DNA from: Bolinopsis microptera
Lineage: Eukaryota; Ctenophora; Tentaculata; Lobata; Bolinopsidae
Assembly (NCBI RefSeq): GCF_026151205.1
Contig: NC_087078.1
Coordinates: 8,820,675 to 8,884,674, forward strand
Length of the DNA: 64,000 nt
Direction: 5' to 3'
The notes under the pieces are model-generated. The model ran no database searches. It was not told the origin of the DNA and saw nothing but the letters and a program-made list of their open reading frames with translations. Below, in pieces: positions 3,427 to 63,434 of this stretch (positions are counted from its first letter, which is position 1; each line of letters begins with the position of its first letter). The position numbers were made by a program, and so were the translations under genes.

Positions 3427-6400
3427 CTACAAATTCTGATGTAGAGAATGTTCATAACTCTCCTGGGCCACATGCTCCATAACCTCCGCATTAAGCAGCT
3501 CCTTCACCTTATACTTCATAGAGATATCATAGGCAGTTAAGATAATAGTGTCGAATAGTTGCACTCCGTACGCAGCTAGAGCTCTGATCACGTTACTAAG
3601 ACGCGCAATTGTTTCTCTGGAGTTTATCGTGAACGCCTCAATCTGAAGTAGGGAGGCTTTGTATCAGATTGATTTGGAGTACAAGATTAAGAATGTCTAA
3701 ACTGTTGGATTTGTGTACGAGCTGATCTTGATCGATGAAAAAAAGTGAAAGCGAAAGCGAAAGTAAATTTATTTACCGGCTGATCTGGTGAGAAATGTGG
3801 TCCGACCCACACGAACCCATTGTTCCCAAGTATCACAGTAGCGTTACATGGTAATCTGTGGAAATGGAGCTTGCTTCTTTTTATTAGCACGCTGGGGACC
3901 TGGCATTTTGTTAATACAAGAGTTACTTAGTGCAAAAATATCACATAAACGTGTACGTGGAACTTTGATGCAATGAAAATGTTGAATAATATGTTCTTAT
4001 ACGAATACGAATATTATGTCTTAATACAATTAATTTAAAACAGTTTATTCATTTATTTTACCTTGATGAGAACCCCCTCAGGTAGTTTCCCGTACTTGTT
4101 GGACCTCATGTGTAACTTTAACATACCGTCTATATTCCCTACATCTGATACCTGTGTGTTACTATGGTTACTAGCAGTTACTATGGTTACTATCGTAGGT
4201 AACTATATTATCTACATTACACTTACAGTTACTACAGTTACTACTGTACATGTAAGTAACTCTGACATCACACATACCTCAGCACAGACGAGGTCCCCCT
4301 CAGTGAAATACTCCCTCATCATCAGCTCATCATTAAGGGTCTTCCTCCGCAGAACGTTTCCAGGTAAGTACACTGAACTCAGCTGTAGTTGGCAGTCTAA
4401 TCTGGAACCACAGTCCACCTGAACAAAAATAGGTCACAAAAATACTTGGCAAAAACAGAACGCTCCAACCAAACACTCGAAATATGTCTAGTTTGTTACC
4501 TAAATCGATTTCAGAACTTTTCCCTCCTAACACACCCAAACAAGGAACGACACACGAACAAAACTTAGACTGGTTATCAATTTACTCACAGACTGACCTG
4601 AGATCTAGCATCTTTTATAAAGGCCCAATGCTCGCTATTTCAGAGCATAACACTCGCATTACATGCCCATCCAGTATATTTTCTATCAACATATATAAGA
4701 ATTCGTCAAAAAAAGTACTACTAGACTTGCAAAGTATTGGCTGCAACGACGAATGGCCACCATTTTTACTCCACAACCTACCTGGATTACGTAAATCACA
4801 AAGAACATAGTCAATAATCACTCAAAACCAAACTCATACAGCTCAAATTAAACAATCTGAATCAGGACAACATTTCAAACCACCTGCCATTCTAACAGCA
4901 CATTCCTTATTTCACTGCCACATAGCGCATATCTACACTGATAACACACCTAATTGCGGTGAGGCAGCATCATAAAGTTACCAATATCAAATATGTTTGC
5001 AGATCAGGGCCAGTCGACTCGACCAATAAAATTTTAATCGAATAGTTTTAATAAATAACATCACAATTATAATCTGCGTGCCCCTCGGGGATGAATATTT
5101 AACTTATTTCAATTATATATTACTTTTGAGTAAACATTGGCTGGTACTACGGACCAGTCCCCCAATCAATCAATCAATCAATCAATCCACCTACTGATCC
5201 TAACCACCCTAACAACTCTCTAGCTCTCTCTTCAACCCTCATTCCCTCACTCCTCTTGGTGCACAAAACCATTCCAACCTATGTATGTCCCCCCTACGGA
5301 TTCCACAAGCCCAACGGTACATAGTTAGACGAAAAACAGAAAACCTTGATTGCCAGATCAAGGACTGCATCAGTAGCAGCGAAATACGGATATACCTTCT
5401 CCCTTACAGTCAGCGAGCTGACAACTATCTGACTGTGTCTTTTAGGCCTTGCCACACCACCTTCGCTATTGCATCCGCTCGCCCGTATTCACTGACACAT
5501 GCCACACCTGGGTTTAGTATGAAGATGTACGCATATTCACCCAAGATGCGGAGATGCCTCAGTTTAGCGAAATGAGATACAACAGCAAACTCACAGGAGC
5601 ATGGATCAGAATCATCAGTTACCAACCTGACACCGTTTCGGGGCTTTAATCGCAATACGGTTTCCTGCAGGCGCCCCAGCAGTCCACCCTTGAACCACCA
5701 TATTATCCGAGAGTCACTTGAGGAGACCCGTTAGAGCTCGCAATTGGCGACGAGATAACGTTTATGGTACCTCTAGATGTTATAGTGAACTCTCAAGCTC
5801 CAACCTTCCTGAACTCCCACTCCCTCTTTCTCGATAACAAGTAAATCCATCTGGAACAGTGGGCTGCCTCTTTCCCACTGTCCCGTACCAGCTTCTTCAG
5901 CTCTCTTCCCCTAAAACCAATCCTCCTCGCAGCTCTCTCCAAACTCTGCGCAACCACTCCCCTAGCTCCAACTTCGACTGCGGCATTATAACAGCACCAA
6001 CCTTTCGCCCGAATCTCAGCCTGCAGACCGCTGTATCGGTCGAGTTTGTACTCGTGCGATTCAGCGATCCGCTCTTCAGATGGTACTGTTAGCTCCCACC
6101 AAATAACTGTCTTTGCCGACCTTGAGAATATCACAAGGTCCGGCCTCAGCCGTGTTTCCACAATCTCACTGGGAAACTTAAGCTGCCCCTCAAGGTCTGA
6201 CAGCACTATCCAATCCCGATACCCACTCAGGATCCCAAAACCACGACACAAGATCAGAACAAAGATGGGTCAAAATAGGTTTGGACTCGTTATTGCAGAT
6301 CAAAAAAACAAACGCATGGGCCAAAGTCTAAATAAAAATGTAAAATATGATAATTAAATATAACGAGTCCCATATCCATTTCATTTCAAAACTGTAAAAT

Positions 6401-13300: not shown

Positions 13301-16300
13301 AGATTGGTTTAAAGGGTGTGATCATTGTTATTGGGAAGAAAGGAGACACTTCAGTCTGCGGGAACAACAGAGGGATCACCTTAAGGTCTACAGCATCCAA
13401 GCTTTTTCAGATGATTCTTCTTAAGCGGTTACATGCTGGTATGGAGTGTCTCCTCAGGGAGAATCAGTGCGGATTTAGACAGAACCGCTCATGTATTGAT
13501 CAGATTTATTCTCTCCGAACTATTATTCATAACTGTCTTGAGTTTAACATTCCTCTTTACATTAATTTTGTGGATTTCAAGGCAGCGTTCGATTCTATCA
13601 GAAGGGACTTTATTTGGTGCAGTATGAGACACTATGGGCTGCCTGAAAAATATGTCAGAATATTTCAGTCATTTTTTGGGGGTACCATGAGTGCCGTGAG
13701 GGTTAATGGGGAGCTGACAGACTGGTTTGATGTTAACTCAGGCACAGGTCAGGGTGACATTCAAGCACCTCCTGTCTTTAATTTCTGCCTAAACTTTTCT
13801 GCATTTCTGGCTGAGAACAACAAGATCATCAGTCAAGGCGCAGTGCTGCAGAAAGAGATGAAGACGGTCGAGGAAAAGGTCATTCTGGACACCGATTATG
13901 CTGATGACATGGCTATTATGGACAACTCAGGGGAAGGCCTACAGGAATCAACTGATCTATTAGTTCATTACAGCTCCTACGCTGGGCTCAGAATAAATGC
14001 AAAGAAGACCCAATGCATGGCTGTAAGCAAGTGCGCCTCCCAGCGACCTTTCATCAAGGATGATTGTATTGAGCTGTCGGTTGAGGGTGAACCCGTCGAG
14101 CAGGTTAGCAACTTTGTCTACCTGGGTGCAACTATTAGTGGGGATGGGACAATCAACAGAGACCTGGATGTCCGTATCCAGAAGGCTAATGGCGCCTTTC
14201 ATCAGCTCTGGAACATTTGGAATAGCAGAACTATAAAGACTCCAACCAAGATCAGGATCTATAGGGCTGCTGTCCTCACCATCTTGTTGTATGGAGCTGA
14301 AGTCTGGAACACCACCAAAAAGCAGATGAAACGTTTCGAGGTTTTCCATCAAACCTCCTTGAGAAGGATCCTTAGGATTAAATGGTTCTTTCATGTAACC
14401 AACGACGAAGTTCTTAGGAGGGCTGGCATCAAGTCAGTTGAGACTTTCATCAGTGCTGCCAGGCTACGTTGGTATGGACATGTAGTTAGAATGCCAGACT
14501 CTAGACTACCGAGGTTTCTGTTGAACTGGAAGCCAAACTATGGAAAGAGGTCAAGGGGCAGACCCCCGTAAGAACTGGAAGTCCTGCGTACTCGAAGATG
14601 CTGCTAAGTTTACAGGTGTTGAAAACATCGACAACGACACAACAGAAGCTTTGGCTACCAACCGAGTACAGTGGAGACATATGTTACGCCGCCAACGCGA
14701 TGTGTGTGATGCAGGCCACTCCAACGACTAGGAGGAGACCTTACCATGTAACATGTAACATGTATGTATTTATATTTTAGAAAAACACAGAAGTGTCAGC
14801 GTTCCCGATGATGTTAACCCTGGTTTTAGCATTACTTTTCCATTATGGTAAGTTGAACTTAAAGTCTAATGTTACAGTTCAAATATTTAAAAATTCTGAC
14901 CCAAAAGTCCAATATAGGTTATTGCAAAACTTGTATAAAAATTATTCGTAATTGTGGACTTGTCTCAGGACCTCCGGCAGTGAGAGCAGAAAACACGCAG
15001 ATTAATATAAAGAGTTCAGAAGCTAAGAGTCACTATAACAACAGACCGCCCTCTAACGCACATGATGGGGACTACAGTACGTACTACAGCGTGAAAAGTA
15101 ATGCTGCAGGGATTACAGGGAACTTTCTGAAACTCTATCTGGACGGTCTCTACACCATCTCAACAGTGAATGTAACGAATAGACTTGATGGCAGTTCTGA
15201 GACCATTTATAGATTCGGAAATACGATGGTTATGGTTATAACAACAGATGCTACAAGGTCAAGGGCTTCGGGAGAGGTGACGGACTGTGGAACTGTGACA
15301 GGTAGATAAATATCAAACTGAGATTTGGGCTGATTAGTAGATTTCTTTACTTCATAAACGCTTAACGTGGCGTATGTTAACTGACTAAAAATATACAATG
15401 ATCTTTCTACATACAAAATCTATAACTCAATGTATTCACAGCAAATGATTTGCGTTCTGGCAGCAGCCAAGAGAAGCAGACTTACCCGTTCGACTGTAAA
15501 GGTGGTAAAGGCGACACTATCATGATTACGGACACGGACTCCGGGACAACTGGGCACGGAATTTCAGAAGTGAAGGTCTACGGAACATCTTTCCCGAGTA
15601 AGTTAATAATAATAATTCAATTTTAGTACAGGAAAATCCGTCTGAAAAAATCGATCTGCTGACACACGAAGCTTTCAGAGGATTTTTGACGTTTTTGAGT
15701 CTCATTAGGTGCCCTTTGTGGCTGACCAACTTTTCCAAACTTTTCCACGTGGCTTAAGGCCACTTTTTGCCACTTTACCACTTTTTACCACATTTCTTGT
15801 TTGTCGAATATCTTTAGTTGTGAACATCGTAAAAGGTTGCGAATCAATCGAGTGTGTTCATATTATCAGGAAGAAAACTTTTGTTCTAACAATTTTTACG
15901 TCAGATAATAAGTTAATTGGATAAATGTTAAGGAATATGTTTACTCCTTAACCAAGATATCTAATGGGAGAGGGGTGACTATGGGAACTTCTTGTGTCAC
16001 GAAAACTGGACCCTCCTACTCAAGCACTAAATTAAAAGGGTTAGCTTCAGGTAAAAGTAGTTGAACTTACCTTGTATACAGCACCAGCAACTGTAGCACA
16101 GATGTGATCATGACTCAGAGCAGTTCCGTGAGACTTCATAAAATCCAGATTCTGTGTTATGACGTCACCTGGAGGAAACAAATATTAAAGACAAAAGCAT
16201 TATATTGCTGTCTTTGTTATTTAATTATCAATGGTTATTGTTACTATCTTACAGTACTACTAGCTGTTTTTTGTAGTACATGCCCTGCTTCCTTCCATTC

Positions 16301-16935
16301 CTAAACTACCTTACAAGCTCTTCCTCTTTTACACCCTTTTCACTCAGTTCATTTCACTCATTCACTTCATATCTTATTACCACAGTATCTGCCAAAACCA
16401 ACATGGCCCATGTGGAAGGGGGCCTTGACGTTGTTTACCACTTGGCCCTGCATCCCAAGCTGACGGTCGGCCTCCACTCTCTAAAAACATACCTTCAGTG
16501 AAGGCAGATGGTCAACAAATAGCGATGCTAGAGCTTGGTGTGAACAAATCTTGACCTACTTTCACACCTTTGGGACCACTCTCGCAAATGCGAGAGTAAT
16601 GACCCCGGGGAGGCCCCATTGGTTTTAGAAGGTTGCATATTTTAAATTAAAAAAAAAAATTTAAAATCAATAGAAAAAAAAACGGACGTCTTGAAACATT
16701 TATCTTGAAACGCACAATGCCCATATAAGGACCTAACCAGGAATAACACGTAACGCCCATATAAGGACCCAACCAGGAATTGAATAACACGTGATGCCCA
16801 TATAAGGACCTAACCAGGAATAACACGTGATGCCCGTATAAGGACCTAACCAGGAGTAACGATGTGTTGCTCCAACTCTTCTCCCTGTGAAGCTATCACT
16901 CTAGTCCTCTTGTACGGAGCTCGTATTATCTCCAT
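3427..16935 (-). CDS. EXOSC2: Exosome complex subunit RRP4 (EXOSC2)
   Basis: This is a cap subunit of the RNA exosome that binds RNA and helps feed it to the 3'-5' degradation core in nucleus and cytoplasm. Seven exons join in phase to 285 aa (the human protein is 293): 16851-16935, 16071-16168, 6414-6518, 4278-4418, 4062-4151, 3777-3899 and 3427-3642. Family landmarks are the N-terminal HIVTPGD, GEIGDVVVGRITEVQQKKW at the start of the S1 domain, LSSVYLPGNVLRR, RSNKYGKL, and the KH-domain signature VILGNNGFVWVG. The start ATG at 16933-16935 begins MEIIRAPYKRTR. Intron 2 is about 9.5 kb and carries the lectin-like genes and mobile elements. The 5' splice site of exon 1 lies inside a minisatellite. 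A second intact copy of exons 1-2 lies at 24394-24792. Confidence 0.93.
4140..4255. repeat. GTTACTATGGTTAC-type degenerate tandem repeat
   Basis: Repeats of GTTACTATGGTTACTAGCA fill the EXOSC2 intron between exons 4062-4151 and 4278-4418. The same near-palindromic core recurs at 6530-6700, 7390-7445, 19040-19075, 27130-27335 and 34800-35065. Confidence 0.75.
4480..5187 (+). mobile_element. 5'-truncated LINE, ORF2 C-terminus and 3' end
   Basis: The frame 4484-4810 encodes the C-terminal end of a non-LTR retrotransposon ORF2, with FYKGPMLAI, SINIYKN, LLDLQS and the final GLRKSQRT. The same order of motifs occurs in the fragment at 30830-31765. Both share a 3' end containing a CCCCTCGGGG-type hairpin and TGAGTAAACATTGGCTGGTA followed by a GGACCAGTCCCC-type block. 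This copy ends in an (AATC)n tail at 5162-5187. It lies on the plus strand, opposite to EXOSC2, in intron 3. Confidence 0.75.
5793..6260 (-). pseudogene. PD-(D/E)XK-like endonuclease fragment of a retroelement
   Basis: An open minus-strand stretch of about 150 codons contains TRLRPDLVIFSRSAK, then, 14 residues after the RPD, ELTVPSEERI, and later QAEIRAKGWCC, VEVGARGVVAQSL and RKLVRDSGKEAAH-like basic sequence. The RPD-spacer-E/D-TVP pattern is typical of restriction-like endonuclease domains found in some non-LTR retrotransposons and in repetitive gene families of cnidarians and fish. There is no reverse transcriptase next to it, and no start codon or intron can be defended. About 5285-5790 on the same strand holds no recognisable continuation. 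It is probably transposon debris in EXOSC2 intron 3. Confidence 0.5.
6530..6740. repeat. Minisatellite plus duplicated start of EXOSC2 exon 3
   Basis: About nine units of a GTTACTATGGTTACTAGCA type lie immediately before EXOSC2 exon 3. Beyond them, 6698-6740 repeats the first roughly 40 bases of that exon together with its acceptor, with changes that create an in-frame stop. The array therefore lies between a real and a broken copy of the same exon edge. Confidence 0.7.
7131..7350 (+). repeat. Four-unit minisatellite (about 55 bp)
   Basis: Four units of CATCTGGAACTAGATAAATA followed by CGTGAACAGAAAGACTACCC and a C-rich tract precede the orphan lectin-like exon. Confidence 0.85.
7376..7593 (+). 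pseudogene. Orphan F5/8C-like lectin exon
   Basis: This exon is homologous to the third exon of the two lectin-like genes at 14.8 and 23.3 kb: FNCKGSRGDSVLIKD and HSISEVKIFGEPY match FDCKGGKGDTIMITD and HGISEVKVYGTSF. The GACAG acceptor, the split codon phase and a GTGAGT donor at 7571 all agree with the paralogues. No upstream signal-peptide or N-terminal exon is present; a minisatellite occupies that place. The start of the exon is extended by an in-frame minisatellite encoding repeated YGN. If the donor is not used the frame stops at 7593. It is best read as a relic of a third gene in this family. Confidence 0.55.
7600..8267. other. Non-coding interval in EXOSC2 intron 2
   Basis: I see no gene, RNA or clear repeat here. 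AT-rich sequence and short open frames without homology only. Confidence 0.5.
8368..8452. repeat. Long hairpin
   Basis: AATGCTTCCTTTTAAAGTAA plus TGGTAGAAA is followed, after a spacer of about 25 bases, by its near-perfect complement ending TTTAAAAGGAAGCATTTT. The stem is roughly 35-40 bp. Confidence 0.7.
8655..9539 (+). repeat. Pair of direct repeats (about 90 bp)
   Basis: 8655-8752 and about 9439-9539 are nearly identical, both containing TGTCCGGATTTGTCCGAAAT, then CCCTCCCTATTTGCCGGACG and GTAGATGGCCCCTAA. Each is preceded by a C-rich run. They lie within the foldback element. Confidence 0.75.
10302..10930. repeat. Poly-G tract and GC-rich palindromes
   Basis: 10302-10361 is almost pure G, broken only by CC and flanked by a CCCCCCCGG return. 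10742-10930 consists of GGGGGCTGCGCCCCC-type palindromes, three tandem CAAGGGGCTCCGC units and two GCTCGCTTCGCTCGC palindromes. The base composition is completely unlike the surrounding AT-rich intron and suggests inserted DNA. The long proline/arginine frames across it are composition artefacts. Confidence 0.7.
11510..14775 (+). mobile_element. Near-full-length RTE-clade non-LTR retrotransposon
   Basis: The element is about 3.26 kb, typical for RTE. It has one long coding region (endonuclease then reverse transcriptase, no RNase H), a very short 3' UTR, and ends in CATGTAACATGTAACATGTA instead of poly-A. Comparison with copy B shows exactly where it interrupts the lectin gene's 5' flank: copy B reads continuously across the site. 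TATTTATA flanks both ends and may be the target duplication. Confidence 0.85.
11579..14731 (+). pseudogene. RTE endonuclease-reverse transcriptase polyprotein, three frameshifts
   Basis: The apurinic-type endonuclease comes first, with FGTWNVLSL, GITENHM, VVAYAPTEGAE, LLLGDFNAKV, NQIDHICIG and SDHYLVLG in order. The reverse transcriptase follows with KSPGVDGITNE, INFVDFKAAFDSI (motif A), SGTGQGDIQAPP (motif B), DTDYADDMA (catalytic motif C, about 13897-13923) and VSNFVYLGATIS. The C-terminus has the RLRWYGHVVRM box and stops at 14731. The frame is broken at about 12341, 13315 and 14567. Each break is explained by one extra base, and two of the three lie in C runs. Apart from these the coding sequence is open, so the copy is young or the breaks are sequencing errors. 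Confidence 0.85.
14808..15626 (+). CDS. Secreted F5/8C (discoidin/fucolectin)-like lectin, copy A
   Basis: Three exons are seen: 14808-14847 (signal peptide MMLTLVLALLFHY), 14969-15301 and 15442-15597, all with GT-AG introns and split Gly/Ala codons. The mature protein has the galactose-binding-like pattern of F5/8 type C and fucolectin domains: SNAHDGDYSTYYSVK, NFLKLYLDGLYTIS, then FDCKGGKGDTIMIT and GHGISEVKVYG. Such proteins usually bind sugars outside the cell. A GTAAGT follows 15597; if it is not used the protein ends at the TAG at 15624-15626, otherwise a further exon is needed. In this copy the upstream ATG of copy B is a GTG, so translation would start at the second Met. The gene is nested, antisense, in EXOSC2 intron 2, and the RTE element sits just upstream of it. 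Confidence 0.75.
16188..16655. mobile_element. Insertion of about 470 bp specific to copy A
   Basis: Copy B runs straight from ACAAATATTAAAGAC into AAATTTAAAATCAATAG. Copy A has about 470 extra bases here, including a CTCTCGCAAATGCGAGAG hairpin, a CCCCGGGGAGGCCCC block and a 3' A-rich end. It behaves like a short retroposed insertion (SINE or LINE end). It lies in EXOSC2 intron 1. The family is unknown. Confidence 0.6.
16700..16860. repeat. 36-bp minisatellite across the EXOSC2 exon 1 donor, copy A
   Basis: About four units contain, on the gene strand, the last bases of exon 1 plus the donor (CCTG/GTTAGG), then CCTTATATGG, GCAT and CACGTG. Each unit therefore repeats both a 5' splice site and an E-box plus CArG pair, some degenerate. 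The functional junction is at 16851/16850. Confidence 0.8.
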
Positions 16936-17144
16936 GTTTACTTAAATCTAGTGAAGTAGAGGGGATTATACAAGAAACCTTTAGAAGAATAAGCGTTTTA
17001 TTAAACTAATTTAAGTGTAAATAATTTAGTCAAAGGCAATACTTGTAATGCTACTTGGGGGTAGTAAGCTCGGTTTCAATTTTGGTCCTTCTTTGGTTTA
17101 CAACTTATAATCTCAGTTGATAACATGGCTGATGTTTGACTACA

Positions 17145-17172
17145 ATAAACACGTGATGCCCATATAAGGATG
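17145..17172. promoter_or_regulatory. E-box plus CArG module between RAD54L end and EXOSC2 start
   Basis: One copy of CACGTG-4-CCATATAAGG lies about 210-230 bases upstream of the EXOSC2 start codon. The equivalent site in copy B (about 25005) has lost the AAGG end. Confidence 0.4.
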
Positions 17173-17661
17173 AGTTTGTGTTTGACTACCGGAGAATCAA
17201 ACGAGTGAACGTTTTAAAAATATGTTCCGTTTTTAATGTTACAAAATACATAATATTACTTCAAATAATTGCCAGGTTATTCAACGAAATTGCATCTGAA
17301 ATTCAGTCTTCTGAGTTCTGAGGTCAATATTTACAATTAAATAATATCAAATATTTTGGTTTAGAACTCATTAATGATGTCACTCCGGAATAAGTTCATC
17401 AAACAATTTGATGCCAACAAAGACATTTAACATTGGTTGATTGGTTCTATTAAGTCAGCGATAATAATTAATATCTTTAGTCAGCAGTATGATCTATTAA
17501 TTTAATAATTGTTAAAAACAACTTGATAAAATATTTCAAGTCATACTAATAACGTCATACTAATAATAAGTCATACTAATAACGAGGCAAACAACTGAAG
17601 GCTCAACAAAATACAATTAATTATCAACAACAATTTATAAATTAACGTATAAAATAAAACA

Positions 17662-19247
17662 TCAGTTTTTCTCGTGAGATCGCTGATAGAAGACGAAGGA
17701 GACGGCTGTATCCCAGGCTGAGTGTAAAGCAAAGTCCTTTATTTTGTGTTTACTTGTAGTGTGATTCCACTGTGCCACCTGAAATATACCGTTATTTGTA
17801 AGGTAAGTTAAAGCCAATATACCCTGAATATTGGCTTTAATCTGACTGGATATGGTATTATCAATTCACAAAAGCCAGATTATTGTTAATTCCCATAATT
17901 CTTTTTTTTCTGACTTAAGTGAATAATAATTTAAACAAGAGCAGTTCTACAATAAACACGTGATGCCCATATAAGGGTATATGACTAACCGAGCAGTACT
18001 ACACTAAACACGTGATGCCCATATTAGGGTATATATGACTAACCGAGCAGTACTACAATAAACAGTAAACACGTGTTGCCCACATTAGGGTATCGGATAT
18101 GACTAACCGAGCAGTACTACAATAAACACGTGATGCCCATATAAGGGTATATATCTAACCGAGCAGTACTACAATAAACACGTGATGCCCATATAAGGGT
18201 ATATGACTATCCGAGCAGTACTACAATAAACACGTGTTGCCAATATAAGGGTGTAAGACTAACCGAGCAGTACTACAATAAACACGTGATGCCAATATAA
18301 GGGTGTAAGACTAACCGAGCAGTACTACAATAAACACGTGAAGCCCATATAAGTGTGTAAGACTAACCGAGCAGGTGGTGTCAGCTTCCTCAGGAGGTGC
18401 TTTAGTCTGGATATATTGTTAATACACCTCTTACATTGCAGTCTGGAGGGAATGGTATTAGAAACATAGAGTGAGTGATATAAAAAGGAATTATTGATAC
18501 AAATTAAGATGGAAAAGAACACATAGCTAGTAACTGCATAGTGCATACCATTACTGTGTGGCAATGATGAGTTCGAATAATCAATTGTGTTTTAAAATTA
18601 ACAATTTAGATAAAAGATGTTATTATTGATTCTACTGTTGAACTTTTGCGGAGATATAACAACTAACTTATCGTGAGTATCGCTGAGAGTATCTGTCTTG
18701 AGGTTGAACAGTTCCCTAAGTTCCGAGAGAGAAAAGTGTCGCTCCACATTCTCTTCACAGTCCACCACCGCACTGCTCAAACTCTGTAACACAAGGTCAG
18801 CATTCAGCAGCGTGAATTTTCCCCGTGTTTATGTTGTATTTGACAATTAACATTTATTTGGTATTTTATTCAATTGTTCACATGTATGATGTGGTGTTCA
18901 CGTAAAAAGTGTCGTAATTGAGTTTTGAGGTTGAAGTCAGATGCCAATCAAAAGAATCTAAAATACAATCGAAAAGCTGAGATTGCCCTTCAGTCGCACT
19001 GTAAATCCAGGAACAATACTGATCGTTAAGTAACGATTAAAGTAACCATAGTAATTAGTAACCATAGTAACGACCCTAACCTTCTTATGAGTCTGTCTCT
19101 GAAATATCTTCTCCTCGATAGTTCCCGTAGTCAGCAGTCTGTATATAAATACAGGTTTCTTCTGTCCGTCCCTCCAGACTCGTGCCATAGCCTGCTCATC
19201 ATTGGCTGGGTTCCAGTCAGGGTCAAACATCACCAGTCTGTTAGCTC
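17662..19247 (-). pseudogene. Orphan duplicate of the last four RAD54L exons
   Basis: Exons 19081-19247, 18668-18783, 18368-18442 and 17662-17778 match the RAD54L exons of copy B in order, phase and splice sites. The third has two extra bases (ATATATCC against ATATCC), which shifts the frame after CKRCINNI. No upstream RAD54L exons precede this set; the 3.3-kb inverted-repeat element and copy B lie there instead. It is a 3'-end duplicate without a promoter or a start codon. The last exon, ending [10 protein letters not shown], is unchanged. Confidence 0.88.
17945..18375. repeat. 52-bp minisatellite across the RAD54L exon 15 donor, copy A
   Basis: About eight units each contain CACGTGATGCCCATATAAGG and GACTAACCGAGCAG. 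The latter is the complement of the exon 15 end and donor (CTGCTCG/GTTAGTC). Copy B has only two units (about 25765-25875), so the array length differs between duplicates. Confidence 0.88.
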
Positions 19248-24274: not shown

Positions 24275-24393
24275 CCAAGATATCTAATGGGAGAGGGGTG
24301 ACTATGGGAACTTCTTGTGTCACGAATACTGGACCCTCCTACTCAAGCACTAAATTAAAAGGGTTAGCTTCAGGTAAAAGTAGTTGAACTTAC

Positions 24394-47589: not shown

Positions 47590-47690
47590 GACGTCGAAAA
47601 TATGACCCACCACCTGCACCCAAACGTCACGTCCAGTACTAACTACTAAGTGCATGGTCCCCCCGCTCAGAATGAGGTATAATTGAGGGT
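47590..47690. repeat. Dispersed repeat related to 60-180
   Basis: AAAATATGACCCACCACCTG and CCAAACGTCACGT followed by a C-rich run match the block near the left end of the window. About 46900-47580 and 47700-47810 are otherwise AT-rich intergenic sequence with no gene seen. Confidence 0.4.
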
Positions 47691-47814
47691 TGTAGGATTT
47701 CGGTGAGAACAATCAACTCTATTAAGTGAGTATTCCTTGGTATTTTCTTCCTGAACCATTGAAATTATACCCAATCTGGTGCACTTTCCTGCACCTGGTC
47801 CATGAACTAGTGTT

Positions 47815-49369
47815 TTAAGTGTATGAATGAGGAGTGAAGCTAATCTCTGGTGGCATCTGAACTAGAAATTGAGGCTGAGGGAGTCCTGGCAATCCGAACT
47901 GGGGATGGAACATGACATTGTCTCGGTGGTATTGGCTCATAGGAACGCCTGGTGGTGGAGGTGGTAGTCCAAATGTAGGGTACGGTTGCTGGTAACTGTG
48001 GGGAACAAAGCTTACGTCTTGGTATAAATTTGGCTGCATAATCTCGGCTGGCCCTCTCAATTGTAAATGAGGGTCTGACGAACCAGGGTGAGAACCATTA
48101 GCTTCCTTGTGAAGGTGTGCATCATGTGAATCGATATAAATCGTTCTAGTCAGAGCAACGTTACGTGATCGGGCTGTGCTAAGTTTGTGAGACATTTTAA
48201 CCTTTTTGTGACAAGGAGGTCTGTAGTTTAGGTTAATTGTAACACTTGACGGTGGTTGTGGTAAATATCTGGGGGAATCTTGCTGGTAGTTGTGGGGAAC
48301 AAAGCTAACGTCTTGGAGGAACCCTGGCTGCATGGTCTTTGCGAGCTGTAAACGATGGTATGATGAACTTGGATGAGTACTATTAGCTTCCTTGTGAAGT
48401 TGTGAATCTTGTAAATAGTTCGGAATTTGGTTATTCAAAGCTTTTTCAAGTGGACTAGGTGAAACTGAAATGCGATCGTGAGATTTTTTGGACCTTTTAA
48501 CCTTTTTACTAGGATAACGTTTGTAGTGATCAGCTAAAATTGGTCTCCACTGACGCAGAACCTTATGGGAGATAATGTCAAGACATGATTGTCGGACATC
48601 TCCGTCAATATAAGGCATTTCAATGACCAATCTCCAAGTGAGATCGTTTGAAGGAACTGAAAGCCATCTGAGATTGTAATTGGTATTCACCAAAGTACAA
48701 TGTCTGGCTTCATCAAGCCCGAGGAATATGTCTAATGAAGCAGCAGCATCTGCTGCAGCATAAATCTTCATATCCTGGGATAGTTCAAATGCTTCCCAAT
48801 TACCTAACACTTGTATTTTAAATAGCTTAGGCAGGCTCCGATGCAAAATATCTGCAACCAACTTTTCAAGGCCTAACTTCGGCATGAAACTGCTTCGTCT
48901 ACCCTTAACAATTGAGTCGGTAAGAGGAGCATCATGTGACAATTTTAATTCGAAGTTTTGAAATTGTTGAACCAGAAATAACGAGAAAAAGTCTTTTCGA
49001 ACAGCAAGGCATCTCAAATCTAACCAGCCCCTAACAGGAATTTGAAACTGAAGTAGAATTCTTCTAACATCTTCCTCAATACCAACTCCAACCTTAGTAA
49101 TTCTTTCATCCAGAAGGATTGAAGATAACAGTTTGGGGAGCCTATGTTTGCTCTCAAACCTACATATTTGAAACAAGATTGATTGTTCTTCTGTAGCAAT
49201 TTGGATTAATGCTACAGGACAACTAGCAAATTTGCTCTTCCATTCACAGTCTAGTCCTAAATACAGGGGAGCCTTTGTCAATGATGCACTTTTTTACAGC
49301 TGAATTGGCTTCTATTACGTCTCTGGGAATTATTATGGCTCGATTTTCTTCAACGTCATAAAGATTCAT
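47815..49369 (-). pseudogene. EXD2-like exonuclease paralogue 4, Pro-rich tail, one frameshift
   Basis: The N-terminus begins at the ATG at 49367-49369 (MNLYDVEENRAIIIPRDV) and shifts frame at a GGGG run at 49266-49269. The main frame then reads YLGLDCEWKS, VALIQIATEEQSILFQ, VGVGIEEDVRRIL, RGWLDLRCLAVRK, MPKLGLEKLVADILH and YAAADAAASLDIFLG. Unlike its neighbours it has no membrane helix. It carries a Pro/His/Gln-rich tail of about 200 residues containing an internal duplication: HLHKEANGSHPGSSDPHLQL and QLHKEANSTHPSSSYHRLQL, each followed by LYQDVSFVPHSYQQ or similar. One extra C on the coding strand explains the shift, so it may be a sequencing error and the gene functional. Confidence 0.78.
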
Positions 49370-50181
49370 CACTGAAAAGTTTTTAATAGTTTGACATAAG
49401 AGCATAAGTGCTCTGTGGATACAAAAAATAAATAATAATTATTATAATATTATATAATGATGTGTTCACTATTCATACCTGATACTTACGATTGATTTAA
49501 TTTTTGCATAAACATAATTTCCATACGGTCCTTGGCGTGTTTGTGCAATTTAAAAAGTGATGGTGGTCAGTTACAACTGGTCACAAAACCAAACATAAAT
49601 TATTGTACAGTCATTAATACTAAATTTGATCACAAGAAACAGTTCAACCTGTTAAAGTTTTTTGGGCAGATTTAAACACAATATAATCAACACCATCTTG
49701 ACATGATACGGTTAGCTGAATTCACATAATTAACAGTAATAAAGGGAAAACTCGACAAATGAAATCGCATACCACTTCAGAGTCCCCCCCCCCCCCTGCG
49801 ACCTTGCATAAGACCACAACACGGCTAAATTTCTATCAGGTTGTTGTTAGGACGTTTCCCTCCCAATTGTCACATCACATATTCATATTTTAGAGGGTTG
49901 ATCATAGTCTAAAACTACAAAATATACTTGATAAAAATAACACAAAGATAGTTTTTTATTTGAAAATTATATTATATTATTATATATAAATCAAGCGTTA
50001 CATTTCAGCCATGCAAAATTACAATGACATATTTCGATATACTAATTGATAAATGGGGCTGCAATATAAGTTGATTATTGTGTGGCCGGATGACAACTAA
50101 CTAAAAAAGAAAAATAAACTTGATTAAATATAATTTAATAATAAATTATTCGGCTGAACCAACACATAGTAAGAGCCACAT

Positions 50182-51345
50182 TCACGTTGGGGCCGTCTCC
50201 CAAATTTTAATGACAAACAAAAACAATAAATTAAAAAATAAAGTGGCGATTAAAAATTTTAAAATCTTTATAAAAGCCTCTTCAACTCGAACATGAAATT
50301 TTTTCCTGCGAGGAATCATATCGAGGACTTTCTCAAATTCATCGTCCATAATGTGATTAAAACGAACACTTGATACGACCCTTCTACCATTAAAATACTT
50401 ACCAAAGTATGCACTTAAATCAGCAACAGGGTTCCAAAAGCTGATTATGTCTAGGCAAAAGATTCGTATCCATTTATGATCATACTTGACTTCAACAGCA
50501 GAATTCCACTTTACATTCGGATTAAGGTCATGTTGGGGTAATAAATCCCCATACACTATAACAACTCCAGGTGGGAATACATTTTTAGAATGCCACTTGT
50601 CATCTAACATATTTAAAGCATGGAATACTTCAAGAGAAGTAGATGCATCGGCAGCAGCATATAACTTTTGATCTTCAGATAAATCTGTTAGCTCCCAATC
50701 TACGCTGAAACATCTCATAGAAGTTGTATCTAATTTCTTTCTTAAGCAATTTGAAGTTAGTGTTTCTAATCCTAATTTTGGCATAAAACTAGCACGTTTT
50801 TCATCGGTATTTCTTTCGATTCCATAAAATTCTTGAGACAGAAACTCTCCATAGAACATTTTAGTAACCAAAAGGCAGCGAAGATCCAACCATCCCCTAC
50901 AACATGTATATCTACCATCACCATGGCTGGTCATCTTGCTATTATAAAACTGACTGTCCAAGCGTCCTATATCCTTCTCAATATCAACTCCAACCTTGAC
51001 GATATATCTGTCAATTAAAACATCACACAATCTTTTTGGTAAAGTGTTAGCACACTCAAATAATGTAGTCTGGAGCAAGATAACACATTCATTGGTTGCA
51101 ATTTGTATCACCGCTACATCAAACACATCCTCTCGTTCACTATAACTGTCACAGTTAAACCGATAACCCTGGTAATAATTCCCGCGAGAATTCCATTCAC
51201 AGTCAAACCCGACCACAGTGACATTATCTTTCTGGATGTATTTCTTAACAGCATTGTTAGCTTCACGTTCATTAGCAGGTACAACAATAAGTCTTCTTTC
51301 TTCTACGTCATACTTTTTCTCCATCCTTTGGCATGTACTAGTCAT
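50182..51345 (-). CDS. EXD2-like 3'-5' exonuclease paralogue 5
   Basis: An intact 387-aa frame begins at the ATG at 51343-51345, with a TGA two codons upstream. It is the most divergent member: VVGFDCEWNSRGNYYQGY has an insertion after motif I, followed by VAVIQIATNECVILLQ, VGVDIEKDIGRL, CCRGWLDLRCLLV, MPKLGLETLTSNCL and YAAADASTSLEVFHAL, so all DEDD positions are present. The DYYGRS box has become YFGKYFNGRR. It ends in a hydrophobic helix (FLIATLFFNLLFLFVIKIW), so it is probably tail-anchored. Gene order and orientation suggest it arose with the other four by tandem duplication. Human EXD2 acts at mitochondria and in DNA end resection; the role here is unknown. Confidence 0.85.
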   Translation of the reverse strand: MTSTCQRMEKKYDVEERRLIVVPANEREANNAVKKYIQKDNVTVVGFDCEWNSRGNYYQGYRFNCDSYSEREDVFDVAVIQIATNECVILLQTTLFECANTLPKRLCDVLIDRYIVKVGVDIEKDIGRLDSQFYNSKMTSHGDGRYTCCRGWLDLRCLLVTKMFYGEFLSQEFYGIERNTDEKRASFMPKLGLETLTSNCLRKKLDTTSMRCFSVDWELTDLSEDQKLYAAADASTSLEVFHALNMLDDKWHSKNVFPPGVVIVYGDLLPQHDLNPNVKWNSAVEVKYDHKWIRIFCLDIISFWNPVADLSAYFGKYFNGRRVVSSVRFNHIMDDEFEKVLDMIPRRKKFHVRVEEAFIKILKFLIATLFFNLLFLFVIKIWETAPT

Positions 51346-51349
51346 TAAT

Positions 51350-52005
51350 CATTGCATTGATCAAACATTGGAATACAAATTACATTTTATTGAAATCATA
51401 TCTAAAGTGTTCCTGTTGTTGAGATAACCTTGAGCCTTGCGATACCAGTGTCACACTGTCAAAACACGACACCAAACTCTCTTAAAACTCTTAAACGTGA
51501 TTGTAATGCAGTTACAATTTTCATATCGCAATTTCAATGCTTGATTAAATAAATGTCATGTGAATTTACTTATAGCTGATTCGATCACCGCTTATTATGT
51601 TATTATTATATTCACACATAATGGTATATATAATATATAATATCGGGAGAGAGTAATACTCAAACACATCAACATCACAAGCATTATCAATAAATCACAA
51701 TAAAACATGCTTTAAATAATAATAAGTAAAAACCCCTCACAGTTACAATAAAATTGCACCGTTAACAATACAATTCTGAAAATAGATGTATGCCTCTGCA
51801 GAACTTAATCGCAATTTAAAGAGCGATAGTATTTTAGTATGAATAAAACATATAAAAATAAAAATCTTCATGCATTGCAGAACTGTTAAGTAATCCAGTC
51901 ATAACTTGATTCAGCTATATAATATTCAATTGTATAGCCGCTGCTAAATCAAAATATCAAATTCATTCCCAAAATTATCGTAAATTGCTACCTATATTTC
52001 AAAGC
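51350..52005. other. Intergenic, no gene seen
   Basis: AT-rich 5' flank of exonuclease gene 5 leading into the ribokinase minisatellite. A palindromic TATATAATATATAATAT stretch lies near 51630. No gene or RNA recognised. Confidence 0.5.
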
Positions 52006-52009
52006 TTGA

Positions 52010-53150
52010 ATAACTGTTGGTATGAAGTAGGATAAGCTTGAAGTACTGTTAGTATGAAGTAGGATAAGCTTGAAGCACTGTTAGTATGAAGTAGGATAAG
52101 CTTGAAGTACTGTTAGTATGAAGTAGGATGAGCTTGAAGTACTGTTAGTATGAAGTAGGATAAGCTTGAAGCACTGTTAGTATGAAGTAGGATAAGCTTG
52201 AAGCACTGTTAATATGAAGTAGGATAAGCTTCAAGCACTGTTAGTATGAAGTAGGATAAGCTTGAAGCACTGTTAATATGAAGTAGGATAAGCTTCAAGC
52301 ACTGTTAGTATGAAGTAGGATAAGCTTGAAGCACTGTTAGTATGAAGTAGGATAAGCTTGAAGTACTGTTAGTATGAAGTAGGATAAGCTTGAAGCACTG
52401 TTAGTATGAAGTAGGATAAGCTTGAAGCACTGTTAGTATGAAGTAGGATAAGCTTGAAGCACTGTTAGTATGAAGTAGGATAAGCTTGAAGCACTGTTAG
52501 TATGAAGTAGGATAAGCTTGAAGCACTGTTAGTATGAAGTAGGATAAGCTTGAAGCACTGTTAGTATGAAGTAGGATAAGCTTGAAGTACTGTTAGTATG
52601 AAGTAGGATAAGCTTGAAGCACTGTTAATATGAAGTAGGATAAGCTTCAAGCACTGTTAGTATGAAGTAGGATAAGCTTGAAGCACTGTTAGTATGAAGT
52701 AGGATAAGCTTGAAGTACTGTTAGTATGAAGTAGGATAAGCTTGAAGCACTGTTAGTATGAAGTAGGATAAGCTTGAAGTACTGTTAGTATGAAGTAGGA
52801 TAAGCTTGAAGCACTGTTAGTATGAAGTAGGATAAGCTTGAAGCACTGTTAGTATGAAGTAGGATAAGCTTGAAGCACTGTTAGTATGAAGTAGGATAAG
52901 CTTGAAGCACTGTTAGTATGAAGTAGGATAAGCTTGAAGCACTGTTAGTATGAAGTAGGATAAGCTTGAAGCACTGTTAGTATGAAGTAGGATAAGCTTG
53001 AAGCACTGTTAGTATGAAGTAGAATAAGCTTGAAGCACTGTTAGTATGAAGTAGGATAAGCTTGAAGCACTGTTAGTATGAAGTAGGATAAGCTTGAAGC
53101 ACTGTTAGTATGAAGTAGGATAAGCTTGAAGTTAGTATGAAGTAGGATAA
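52010..53150. repeat. 32-bp minisatellite from the ribokinase stop codon (about 35 units)
   Basis: The unit is TGAAGTAGGATAAGCTTGAA followed by GCACTGTTAGTA. On the ribokinase strand each unit contains TATCCTACTTCATACTAA, the last five codons plus the stop of that gene. The array therefore forms the 3' UTR and grew from the coding end. Confidence 0.95.
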
Positions 53151-54052
53151 GAACTCTGAGTACCTAGTTTAGTGACACTCTGAGAAGCAACACTACAAGC
53201 AACCTCAACCTTTCTTTGAAACGACCTTCCTTTCAACGACTCATCAGCCAACAGACAAGCAAGCGATCCGATAAATGCATCTCCAGCACCAGTGGTATCA
53301 ACAGCTTTAACCTTCGGACAGGGAACATGGACATTTTCACCAGAGCCGTCTTGATAAATCACACCATTGGCTCCAAGAGTTACCATTCCCATCTTGCAAC
53401 CTTTCTTTCTTAACAGACCCGCTGCATTAGAAGCCTCTTCCACTGAGTTAACAGATTCTAATCCAAGGAGCTTCTCTGCCTCAGATTCGTTAACACAGAA
53501 GATATCAACTAGCTTGTACAGTTCGTCAGGGAGGCTATCAGTTGCCGGAGCAGCGTTGTAGATTGTGGTAATGTCCTTGTTTAGACTCTTGATAAGCTTC
53601 AGAGCAGTCAAGTTGGTGGATAAAGGTATTTCCTGTTGGAACACCACAACTTTGCCGCTTGCCAGAAGACTCTTGGCTTGATTAACGGCCTCGTCATCAA
53701 GCTCGTTGTTTGCTCCTCCGACTATAACAATACAATTCTCAGCCTGATTGTCCACTGTAATGGTAGCCACACCAGAAGCTGCAGACTCCACCCTCCCAAC
53801 GTGGGTGATGTCTACTCCGACATTCTTCAAATTCTCTATGTAATTATCTCCGAATGTGTCTGTGCCCAACTTGGCTACAAGAGCCGTCTTTGCACCTAGT
53901 TTTGCAGCCATTACAGCTTGGTTGGCTCCTTTTCCGCCAAAACCCACCATGAACTTAGTTCCATGGACAGTTTCTCCGCCCTTTGGTAGAACTGGAACGT
54001 AACTGATCAGATCAGTCATACAAGATCCCACAACAACAACAGAGGCAGTCAT
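53132..54052 (-). CDS. RBKS: Ribokinase
   Basis: This PfkB-family kinase phosphorylates ribose to ribose-5-phosphate in the cytosol. A single exon of 306 aa starts at the ATG at 54050-54052 (MTASVVVVGSCMTDLISYVP). The first signature is VGFGGKGANQAVMAAKLGA and the second, with the catalytic Asp, is DTTGAGDAFIGSLACLL; NAAPA and CVNESEAEKLLG are also typical. The C-terminus is GTQSSYPTSY, ending about where other ribokinases end (human continues a few residues past SSYP). It lacks introns while neighbouring genes have them. Reading further 5' to a GTG codon at 54076 is possible but has no support. Confidence 0.95.
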   Translation of the reverse strand: MTASVVVVGSCMTDLISYVPVLPKGGETVHGTKFMVGFGGKGANQAVMAAKLGAKTALVAKLGTDTFGDNYIENLKNVGVDITHVGRVESAASGVATITVDNQAENCIVIVGGANNELDDEAVNQAKSLLASGKVVVFQQEIPLSTNLTALKLIKSLNKDITTIYNAAPATDSLPDELYKLVDIFCVNESEAEKLLGLESVNSVEEASNAAGLLRKKGCKMGMVTLGANGVIYQDGSGENVHVPCPKVKAVDTTGAGDAFIGSLACLLADESLKGRSFQRKVEVACSVASQSVTKLGTQSSYPTSY

Positions 54053-54922: not shown

Positions 54923-56156
54923 TCAAGTAGATGATGAGTTTCCCACAATAGCCACTCTATCCTGGAACTGAGGAAGACCTCTGTCTCTAATTACTGAGTC
55001 CGTCATGGTGGTAGTGCCACTGCCGATATCAGTGAACGATTTAGGCTCCACAACTCTAGCTGGCTCTGAATAACTCGGCTGAGCCTCAGAATCTTCACCA
55101 CAGCAGCAATCTGAACAACCTTCCCGGAAAATATCACATTTGTACATCAGGAAACCGTAAATTATAGGATTAGTAACGATAGAGAGGTAGAAGAATATGT
55201 ACACAAGTGCTTTGGGTCCAGAGGGAGTGTATCTTAAGATACCGTAGATAATCCCATACGGTAACCAGGTTACCAGAGCAGTAGTAACAACCAGTGCTCC
55301 AGAAAGACGCTTACCACGTGACATACGAGGTTCCTTACAGCAGAGAGAGATCCAGATACCAGAGTGGATGAAGAGAGGCAGGATGTTGAAGATGACCATG
55401 TTGAAGTAATCAACCAGACCTTCCCAGTTAAAAGACGTTTCTGCAGCATTGTGGATAGAACACTTACGGTACGTGTCAGTGTATCTAGAGTCGAGGTAGT
55501 GCTCCTCTATCCCTACAATAAGAAGTATTGCCTCTATGATAGGGAGGACCCAGCAGATAGCAATGATCACTCTCAACACTCTCTTTGTAGGGAGGAAGAC
55601 ACAGATGCAGGATATAGGTATGATAGCCAACATGTTCAGATCACTGAGGAGCCAGGAGGAGATGATACTGAGGACTTTGCACCTCACAGTACCCACATCA
55701 GACGAAGTAGCCTCCCCGTAGATAACACTGGGCCAGATGAAGCCAGGTCCTCTGATAGTAGCAGCAGCTATGGAGAGGAGGATGTCAACTACACTCATGT
55801 TAACTAGTACTGTCTTGAACCTCTTCCGGTGGGCCTCTCCTCTGTGGTTGTATTTGAGGAAGAAGAGGAGAGTGTTTGAGTTCAGGAACAGCCCAACCAC
55901 ACCTGAAATTAAAATCAAGTTCTATATATTTCCAGTAAGAAGACAAGAAGTAAACCTTACAGTTTCAACTATAAAGACTAAGTTCTTACTTAATATGGAC
56001 CATTTTGAGTTAACAATTTCCATAAAATGTTTATTTTAGTATCTAGTTTGACTAGCAACTGAACTCACCAAGAAAGATGACACAAATCCCTGTAACAAGA
56101 GTATACAAGTCATGTTCTGCACCATTTTCTGGCTCTCCTACTACCACCACTACCAT
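54923..56156 (-). CDS. Rhodopsin-like seven-transmembrane receptor, copy 1
   Basis: Exons 56069-56156 and 54923-55902 join through a split Gly to 355 aa. Seven hydrophobic helices can be traced, starting DLYTLVTGICVIFLGVVGLF and including NMSVVDILLSIAAAT (TM2), SSWLLSDLNMLAIIPISCI (TM3), VVTTALVTWLPYGIIYGIL (TM6) and SIVTNPIIYGFLMYK (TM7, NPxxY-like). The usual DRY box after TM3 is replaced by SCICVFLPTKR. Cys-rich CDIFREGCSDCCCGED follows TM7 and may be palmitoylated. There is no Lys in TM7, so it is not an opsin. The ligand is unknown. It is a tandem duplicate of the next gene. Confidence 0.82.
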
Positions 56157-56794: not shown

Positions 56795-58360
56795 CTAAAC
56801 ATTTAGCTTATCAGGTTTCACCTTGGTGGTTGTTGCACTAGCTGTATTCGGAGTGGAGGAATTGTCAGCAACAACAGCAGAAGATGAGGATCCCATAATA
56901 GCAACTCTGCCCTGACACAGAGGGCTAGTAACAGTGTCCGTCATGGTGGCAGTGCCACTGACGATATCAGTGAACGATTTAGGCTCCACAACTCTAGTTG
57001 GCTCTGAATAACTCGGCTGAGCCTCAGAATCTTCACCACAGCAGCAATCTGAGCAACCTTCCCGGAAAATATCACATTTGTACATCAGGAAACCGTAAAT
57101 TATAGGATTAGTAACGATAGAAAGGTAGAAGAATATGTACACAAGTGACTTTTCTTCAGAAGTGTCGTAGCGTAAGATACCATGGACTATCCCATACGGT
57201 AACCAGGTTACCAGAGCAGTAGTCACAACCAGCGCTCCAGAAAGACGCTTACCACGTGTCATGCGGGGTTCCTTAAAACACAGCGCGCTCCAGATACCAA
57301 CATGTATGAGTAGAGGCAAGATATTGAAGATGATCATGTTGAAGTAGTCCACCAAGTTCTCCCAGTTGAACATCTTCCCATCAGCCAGATGAATAGAACA
57401 CTTGTGGTAACTAGTGGTGTAGTGAGAGTTCAAGTACCCTCCCTCTATTCCTATGATGAGGAGGATTAGCTCAATCAGAGGAAGACACCACACAGCCGCT
57501 ATAATCCCTCTCATCTGCTTTTCAGAGGGGAGAAAGACGCATATGCAGGATATAGGTATGATAGCCAAGGTGTTGAGATCACTAAGGAGCCAGGAGGAGA
57601 TGACACTGAAGAAAGTGCATCTGACAGTGCCTGTACCTAGGGTAGTAGCCTCCCCGTAGATAACACTGGGCCAGATGAAGCCAGGTCCTCTGATAGTAGC
57701 AGCAGCTAGGGAGAGGAGGATGTCAACTACACTCATGTTGACTAGAACGGTCCTGAACCTCTTCCGGTGCTTCTCTCCTCGGTGGTTGTATTTGAGGAAG
57801 AAGAGGAGTGTACTGAGGTTGAGGACAAGTCCAGTGATACCTGGGAGGATATTGGTATTAAGAAGAGGAGTGTACTGAGGCTGAGGACTAGTCCAGTGAT
57901 ACCTGGGAGGATATTGGTATTAAGAAGAGGAGTGTACTGAGGTTGAGGACTAGTCCAGTGATAGTTGATACCTGGGAGGATATTGGTATTAAGAAGAGGA
58001 GTGTACTGAGGTTGAGGACTAGTCCAGTGATACCTGGGAGGATATTGGTATTAATAGTTGATCACTTACATTGATGTAAAGTTTATTTGAATTTTGAAAT
58101 AAAAACATGGTGTTCACGAAACATTGGTACGGCTTTAGTTAATTCACGAAGGAGCAACCAGGTCCCTTTTGCGCTTACAATTTTTTTCGTAAATCGGGAA
58201 AGATTTTGTTAAAACCCTAGTCCAGATTTCAAAACGTTGACATAGTTCTATAAATTTTGTATACTTTACTCTGGTGGTCGGAAATGGTCTTACCGAGGAA
58301 GATAACACACAGGCCTGTAACTAGAGCAAACTTTTCTGGATCTGTTGAATGCCATGTCAT
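56795..58360 (-). CDS. Rhodopsin-like seven-transmembrane receptor, copy 2
   Basis: Exons 58294-58360 and 56795-57840 join through a split Gly to 370 aa, starting MTWHSTDPEKFALVTGL. It is closely related to copy 1 over all seven helices (NMSVVDILLSLAAATIRGPG, SSWLLSDLNTLAIIPISCI, VTWLPYGIVHGILRY, TNPIIYGFLMYK). It shares the tail CDIFREGCSDCCCGEDSEAQ then PSYSEP and VVEPKSFTDI, but ends differently. The DRY motif is missing here too. The exon 2 acceptor is part of a 62-bp minisatellite. 56160-56790, between the two genes, is AT-rich with no gene seen. Confidence 0.82.
57800..58050. repeat. 62-bp minisatellite across the receptor 2 exon 2 acceptor
   Basis: About four units of TACCTGGGAGGATATTGGTA, TTAAGAAGAGGAGTGTACTG and AGGTTGAGGACTAGTCCAGTGA-type sequence. 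On the gene strand each unit holds a CCTCCCAG acceptor and the first 40 or so coding bases of exon 2. The functional acceptor is at 57840/57841. Confidence 0.92.
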
Positions 58361-61870: not shown

Positions 61871-61883
61871 TGAAAACTAATAA

Positions 61884-63434
61884 TCACATTTCACCGCATT
61901 GTTCAATAAGAACTGGGAATTTAGGTCTATTATTAGCAGCGGTTGGAACATTCTCGATCTTCCTCAAGACCAACATTCCATCACTGACTTTACCAAAAGC
62001 CACGTGCTTGTTGTCCAGGAAGTCACAGGGCTGGCAGGTGATGAAGAACTGGCATCCGTTAGTGTCTTTACCGCTGTTAGCCATCGACATTATACCGGGT
62101 CCTTTGTGCTGCAGGGAGGAATGGTAATCATCATAATGTTAATAGAATACCTTATACCCCCCCCCCCCCCCCCTTATAATCTGGGTTGGAATTTTCTTAT
62201 TTTTGTTAGGGTACTATCTTCTAATAAATAAGGTACTTAGCAAAATATAAGTAAGTATAATATATAAGTATGTATAATATAAGTAAGTATAATATAAGTA
62301 TGTATGTAAGTATAGGTACAGCAGAAAATCGAATCTTGATATCATCCAAGAAGCAAAGTTTGTTCCTAAACTATCTAAAAACACTACTAATATAATATAA
62401 GGTGTTTTTTATGGAGTTAAGACCTAGTTTAGTTTACAGTACACAAGGAGTGAGTAACAGTAAACATAGGTGTTACGGTAACCATGGTAATATAACCTAG
62501 CCTTAAAACTTAATCGGACAATTCTAAAGATTACTAAACAGCAGTTCTACCTTGACAGAGAAGTTCTCATCTTCAAAATGTTTGCCGTAAATACTCTGAC
62601 TTCCCGTACCGTCGTTATTCAAGAAATCTCCTCCTTGAACCATGAAATCCTTGATAACTCGGTGAAAATGACATCCTTTAAACCTGAAAATATTAAGTTT
62701 ATTACATTTTACCATTATAGTATGTAAATAATCTATAACATAAAATTGTCCTGAACGTTTTGGTTTCAGAGTTAAAATCATTTGGGGAAAGAAAATGGCT
62801 GCTTGACTACACTAAACTAACCCAGTAATGGCTGCTTGACTACACTAAACTAACCCAGTAATGGCTGCTTGACTACACTAAACTAACCCAGTAGATGGCT
62901 GCTTGAAGCTTGACTACACTAAACTAACCCAGTAATGGCTGCTTGAGTACACTAAACTAACCCAGTAATGGCTGCTTGACTACACTAAACTAACCCAGTA
63001 ATGGCTGCTTGACTACACTAAACTAACCCAGTAGATGGCTGCTTGAAGCTTGACTACACTAAACTAACCCAGTAGATGGCTGCTTGATTACACTAAACTA
63101 ACCCAGTAGATGGCTGCTTGATTACACTAAACTAACCCAGTAATGGCTGCTTGACTACACTAAACTAACCCAGTAATGGCTGCTTGACTACACTAAATTA
63201 ACCCAGTAATGGCTGCTTGAAGCTTGACTACACTAAACTAACCCAGTAGATGGCTGCTTGACTACACTAAACTAACCCAGTAGGCACACCGTCCCTCCTG
63301 AACTCCCCAGTACACAGCTGTCTAAAATTCTCTGCAGTTCTTGGCACGTGGTCCGAGAACAGCTCCATCTTTATACGTCCTGCAGGATGACCTCCAATAC
63401 TGATGTCGAAGAATACCACTGGGTTCACTGTCAT
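61884..63434 (-). CDS. PPIH: Peptidyl-prolyl isomerase H (cyclophilin H)
   Basis: This cyclophilin binds the U4/U6.U5 tri-snRNP in the spliceosome and isomerises proline bonds. Three exons join in phase to 171 aa (human 177): 63277-63434, 62551-62683, 61884-62108. Landmarks are [37 protein letters not shown] (the RRDG-type insert is a PPIH feature), [15 protein letters not shown] with the catalytic Arg, [29 protein letters not shown] and [15 protein letters not shown], ending QCGEM. An acceptor (TTTCACAG) lies four bases before the ATG, so a 5' exon may exist. The exon 1 donor lies in a 33-bp minisatellite. Confidence 0.94.
62785..63285. repeat. 33-bp minisatellite across the PPIH exon 1 donor
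   Basis: About 15 units of ATGGCTGCTTGACTACACTA plus AACTAACCCAGTA, with 44-bp variants. On the gene strand each unit holds TACTGG/GTTAGT, the exon 1 end and donor. The functional donor is at 63277/63276. Confidence 0.93.

Follow-up and report, generated by a model that had tools for sequence, protein, structure and literature searches.

In a 64-kilobase (kb) window of contig C7 of the ctenophore Bolinopsis microptera, that is, the whole stretch of DNA analyzed here, eight independent minisatellites include an exon edge together with its splice site, and three more do so in the sequence flanking the window. These arrays have the structure that defines the mirage minisatellites of lancelets: they span an exon-intron boundary and their units carry decoy splice sites. 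We consider it probable that they are mirages produced by ordinary tandem duplication in short introns and tolerated at exon edges. The duplication mechanism that we infer would start with a short segment, happening to include an exon edge, that is duplicated in tandem by slippage or by end-joining repair. The array would then grow and shrink, probably by unequal exchange, with further copies of the unit added on the intron side. The whole exon would still be bounded by the copy of the splice site next to it, the other copies would be intronic and the mRNA would be unchanged. Because the exon would thereby stay complete, duplications at edges may survive, whereas one confined to exon sequence would in most cases disrupt the protein.

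Exon models for EXOSC2, RAD54L, PPIH, PECR and ATPAF2 were built on the minus strand under GT-AG and phase constraints, a second receptor-like gene (receptor 2) was read directly, and the model junctions were then compared with the tandem arrays. All arrays listed for the window are on minus-strand genes. An earlier note on this DNA had named nine arrays at splice junctions. Eight of them cross the junction in the gene models; the ninth, a diverged copy at EXOSC2 exon 3, was not recovered, as nothing within 700 base pairs (bp) of either exon edge agrees with it at 20 or more of 24 bases. The EXOSC2 exon 1 donor array (16717-16860) has 3.9 units of 36 bp, with the intron starting at 16850 and 10 exon bp inside the array. 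At the RAD54L exon 15 donor, the functional copy (25761-25870) has 2.1 units of 52 bp, the intron starts at 25863 and 7 exon bp are included. RAD54L carries two further arrays at acceptors. The one at exon 13 (26672-26921) has 5.7 units of 44 bp, first exon base 26697 and 26 exon bp, and the one at exon 11 (27804-27915) has 2.5 units of 44 bp and 35 exon bp. The acceptor of exon 11 was taken as 27838, which is the second-ranked choice because the preceding exon is not fully modelled; the first-ranked choice falls in the adjacent unit of this array. At the PECR exon 4 acceptor (35613-35997; acceptor 35661) there are 2.5 units of 157 bp, with an inner 11-bp repeat and 49 exon bp. The ATPAF2 exon 2 acceptor array (37863-38308; acceptor 37882) has 13.9 units of 32 bp and includes 20 exon bp. 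The array at the presumed exon 2 acceptor of receptor 2 (57798-58054; acceptor 57840) has 4 units of 62 bp and 43 exon bp, its exon edge resting on likeness to the neighbouring gene (54926-55873 against 56876-57811, 81%). Finally, the PPIH exon 1 donor array (62794-63282) has about 15 units of 33 bp and the intron starts at 63276. The shallowest crossings are those of PPIH (6 exon bp) and RAD54L exon 15. A tenth array had been said to contain the stop codon of a ribokinase. This was borne out: a PfkB-family (ribokinase-like) open reading frame (ORF) on the minus strand ends inside an array of 36 units of 32 bp (52002-53151), which contains its last codons and the stop codon.

In a Pfam scan of 10 proteins, 8 matched the expected family (cyclophilin, short-chain dehydrogenase, ATP12, RRP4 N-terminal and S1 domains, Helicase_C, NIF phosphatase, TPR and PfkB), and no family was found for the receptor 2 protein or for a SCAPER-like piece from the flanks. 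Spliced RAD54L and PECR align through their array-bearing junctions with the solved homologues 1z3i and 1yxm, respectively.

The EXOSC2 and RAD54L exon 15 arrays occur twice because positions 14750-19297 and 23304-26747 are one duplicated segment, 84-99% alike in aligned pieces. Copy A (14750-19297) holds a relic of the RAD54L 3' end and the functional EXOSC2 5' end, and copy B (23304-26747) likewise carries a RAD54L 3' end and an EXOSC2 5' end. After this tandem duplication, RAD54L is intact with one copy, EXOSC2 is intact with the other, and a relic of each gene is left over. The second EXOSC2 exon 1 array lies at 24577-24717 (minus strand, donor 24707), and the relic of the RAD54L exon 15 array at 17939-18374 (minus strand, 8.1 units of 52 bp, donor 18367, 7 exon bp). 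Unit numbers differ between copies: about 6 against 2 at RAD54L exon 13, where the relic is the shorter, 2 against 8 at RAD54L exon 15, and 4 against 4 at EXOSC2. This comparison of two copies in one assembly suggests that the arrays change length.

Two kinds of held-out sequence were used. The flanks are 100 kb on each side of the window, outside the view of the earlier note, giving a stretch of 264 kb in all. Gene models there cover CTDP1, ADHFE1, CDC23 and a SCAPER-like gene, with 27 introns. CDC23 was named through solved homologues and aligns across its array-bearing junction, and the CTDP1 protein carries a NIF domain (Pfam); the names CTDP1, ADHFE1 and SCAPER are those we presume to apply. 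In the gene models three flank arrays cross a junction: a CTDP1 donor array (43 bp, 19.7 units), a CDC23 acceptor array in the right flank (42 bp, 5.4 units) and a donor array in the SCAPER-like gene (27 bp, 5.3 units). The second kind is a set of unlinked introns from five conserved families (chaperonin, proteasome, SNF2, kinase and myosin), mainly gene bodies. The first unlinked set had 50 exon pairs, 3 of which were excluded for a missing intervening exon. One locus (L050) gave no exon pair and the actin loci (L001-L008) were excluded. For one myosin exon gap a single intron, read by eye, was used instead, and the acceptors of two CTDP1 introns were also set by eye. None of the 57 unlinked introns used has a crossing array; one myosin array begins at the second intron base and does not enter the exon.

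Window (8) and flanks (3) together have 11 independent arrays, of which 5 are at donors and 6 at acceptors. The earlier note had stated that such arrays leave many decoy splice sites, and this holds: GT or AG is kept in 64 of the 65 matched copies, including 12 of 12 AG in ATPAF2 and 13 of 13 GT in PPIH. In the CTDP1 donor array, 18 of 19 decoys are identical to the functional site over the 15 bases compared, and in the RAD54L relic 6 of 7 decoys keep the dinucleotide. The arrays also enlarge introns, as had been proposed. The CTDP1 intron is now 961 bp, against about 179 bp without the extra units, and the PPIH intron 593 bp against about 143 bp. The claim that the functional site belongs to the unit beside the intact exon agrees with the gene models, where the exon-proximal site yields an intact protein. 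Use of the nearest decoy would break the protein in 10 of the 11 arrays, because in 7 the unit length is not divisible by three and 3 would bring in a stop codon with one retained unit (PPIH, EXOSC2 and the SCAPER-like gene). The CDC23 unit has no stop codon, and one retained copy would lengthen the protein by 14 residues. Intact coding and the homologue alignments suggest that the exon-proximal site is the one used. The CDC23 array in the right flank (C7:8938267-8938493) has a 42-bp unit open in frame with the exon, so that additional copies might in theory give rise to 14-residue repeats in the protein.

The earlier note had further proposed a duplication process that favours exon edges, and this part finds no support in the held-out sequence. 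The comparison with shuffled positions that it had called for, run on the unread flanks, gave 3 crossings among 48 arrays against 2.26 expected from circular shifts over 200 kb (P=0.40). Within gene spans, the 3 crossings compare with 3.7 expected. A geometric null, in which the unit is placed uniformly over the pre-expansion intron, expected 2.07 crossings among 12 flank arrays, where 3 were seen, and 2.19 among 14 when the first unlinked set was added, again with 3 seen (P=0.37). Introns are short (median 193 bp in 47 unlinked introns) and units are mostly 27-62 bp, so that about one sixth of intronic arrays (2.19 of 14) would cross an edge at random. Any claim of edge preference must beat this intron-geometry baseline. 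Splice-like sequence was present in 12 of 40 flank array units, against 17.3 in random segments, which is no enrichment. In a base-wise profile of 84 held-out introns, local duplication was found at 0 of 168 edges 24-60 bp inside the exon, at 3 of 168 at the junction, at 10-12 of 168 at 18-48 bp into the intron and at 11 of 90 at 100 bp. In the window the values were 3 of 42 at the junction and 6-8 of 42 at 6-48 bp into the intron. The profile is a shoulder rising smoothly into the intron, without a peak at the junction. The held-out crossing counts need no edge-seeking process, and a moderate one is compatible with the sample size.

The most serious alternative, although we regard it as doubtful, is that this part of the chromosome undergoes tandem duplication unusually often, with edges affected like all other non-coding sequence there. 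A crossing array is present in 8 of 23 window introns, 3 of 27 flank introns and 0 of 57 introns of the unlinked set. The difference from the unlinked set is significant for the window (Fisher test, P=1.7e-5) and for the flanks (P=0.031), and strong arrays occur at 2.5 per 10 kb in the window against 1.3 in the flanks. However, the window does not differ significantly from the flanks (P=0.084), it was picked for the pattern, and the unlinked set, being five conserved families represented mainly by gene bodies, may be array-poor for that reason. Either the window region is array-rich or the unlinked families are array-poor. In a related reading, one chromosomal neighbourhood would have a locally active process of tandem duplication that seeds arrays at the ends of introns. 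A considerable fraction of its introns would then be mirages, with almost none elsewhere, and mirages would have evolved separately in the ctenophore and in lancelets, introns having grown repeatedly by this route. We hold this reading to be improbable.

The second alternative is a process of local duplication aimed at exon edges, for example through breaks or slippage caused by transcription or splicing at the boundary. Several results favour it and weigh against chance duplication tolerated at edges. When relic copies are counted, an edge is crossed by 10 of the 20 window arrays that have a unit of at least 20 bp and a Tandem Repeats Finder (TRF) score of at least 100, where circular shifts predict 2.98 (P=0.002). 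The geometric null expected 2.50 crossings among 10 window arrays, where 8 were seen (P=0.0001), with an assumed length for two introns (that before RAD54L exon 11 and that of receptor 2). Pooling window, flanks and unlinked introns gives 11 of 24 against 4.69 (P=0.0012), an excess that exists because of the window, in which the pattern was first spotted. Units with splice-like sequence are also in excess in the window (12 of 16 against 7.8, P=0.025). In held-out introns, 11 of 22 arrays cross an edge or end within 10 bp of one, against 5.2 expected (P=0.0015), and 14 of 22 end within 30 bp, against 7.9, with cut-offs that were picked after the distances had been inspected. A stricter array set gave 8 of 15 near-edge ends against 4.3 (P=0.017). 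The array-end test left out 2 of the 47 unlinked introns, with a splice score below 4, together with 4 of 8 kinase introns whose models were implausible. Moreover, the held-out sample is small (14-22 arrays) and compatible with a two- to three-fold preference, and the flanks adjoin the window and so are not a fully independent sample. Against edge targeting stand the crossing counts of the flanks, with or without the unlinked genes, the profile without a junction peak and the flank units without splice-like enrichment. Circular shift, independent placement, intron geometry, splice content of units and base-wise profile all left it unsupported in held-out sequence, the near-edge ends being the contrary sign. 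On balance, we judge it unlikely.

A third explanation, that the arrays were seeded by a dispersed element inserting near splice sites and not by duplication of exon edges, appears very unlikely. The EXOSC2 and RAD54L exon 15 donor arrays do share a 20-bp core that is frequent genome-wide and is also found in nearby arrays of other periods. This core, CCTTATATGGGCATCACGTG, of about 20-24 bp, has 846 + 879 occurrences with at most 2 mismatches in the 264.65-megabase (Mb) assembly, while its reversed control has 0. However, the only window arrays that contain it (2 of 8) belong to the one duplicated segment, and the remaining units carry exon sequence of their own gene. In addition, the 29 core matches with at most 3 mismatches in the 264 kb share about 24 bp and diverge beyond them. 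The core is thus real and dispersed, but improbable as the origin of the arrays. In the window the core is found at 16717-18374, 24577-25870, 17169 and 2539, as single copies and in tandem arrays of several periods. Its sequence resembles what we take to be a CArG-box-like stretch and an E-box, and a search of Rfam gave no match within the window.

An assembly artefact, with repeats collapsed or expanded or two haplotypes placed in tandem, could account for the RAD54L/EXOSC2 segment being present twice in closely similar form, as a misjoined haplotype might be, but we give it the least credit, since the segment order keeps both genes intact, as a true tandem duplication would, and the arrays of PPIH, PECR, ATPAF2, receptor 2, CTDP1, CDC23 and the SCAPER-like gene are independent of that segment.

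Other repeated features were observed in the region. In the window, 39481-51348 on the minus strand holds a cluster of related long ORFs, which, from reading their translations, are candidate 3'-5' exonuclease-domain genes, with pairs about 70% alike in DNA. In the left flank of C7, ten plus-strand genes for tRNA-Ser (anticodon cga) form a tandem array with 345-bp steps (L018, 1938-5117), and an eleventh lies nearby on the opposite strand (L018, 1606-1680). In the right flank, two adjacent arrays of a 331-bp repeat (C7:8904153-8908454; L012 and L013) have consensus starts that look mutually reverse complementary. In the assembly as a whole, a Mnemiopsis repeat named in PMC11797021 occurs at chance level, with 19 matches against 30 for its control, and the Pfam COX1 model has no match.

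The earlier note knew of no named mechanism for such arrays, but the structure already has a name. Excerpts of two reports on lancelets describe tandem repeats over exon-intron boundaries, termed mirages, in the Adh3, globin, troponin C and PGBD5 genes, with many units carrying AG/GT signals and an unstable unit number (PMC3087553, PMC3902484). The same excerpts report normal splicing from reverse transcription PCR (RT-PCR) for Adh3, globins and troponin C (PMC3087553, PMC3902484), and mirages were put forward as possibly a general cephalochordate phenomenon (PMC3087553). The Bolinopsis arrays resemble those described there in lying over a donor or acceptor boundary, in their decoy signals, perhaps in a variable unit number, and in the probable use of the exon-proximal site. 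Even a unit length recurs, 157 bp being given for lancelet BflGb9 in the excerpts and found here in PECR. They differ in their ctenophore host, with 11 cases in 264 kb, and in that splicing is deduced here from DNA alone. No mirages outside lancelets appeared among the matches listed from the open-licence literature. What is new is the presence of mirages in the ctenophore Bolinopsis microptera, together with their local clustering. The finding of eleven in about 264 kb of a non-lancelet animal suggests that mirages arise as a side effect wherever minisatellites are common in short introns. The arrays are also natural constructs for studying how the spliceosome chooses the exon-proximal site, such as the CTDP1 donor beside its 19 decoys.

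Two other systems are comparable in part. The variable internal tandem repeats of human segmental duplications, as far as the excerpted report describes them, also have units of about 30 bp, are associated with changes in gene structure and may be positioned at exon-intron boundaries (PMC2812944). However, the human repeats often alter coding sequence or create introns (PMC2812944), whereas the arrays described here lengthen introns beside an intact exon. Intron gain through AGGT-type tandem duplication, in the portions of the reports that treat it, likewise copies a splice signal locally (PMC4974935, PMC3087553). That route creates a new intron inside an exon, while in Bolinopsis it is an existing intron that grows.

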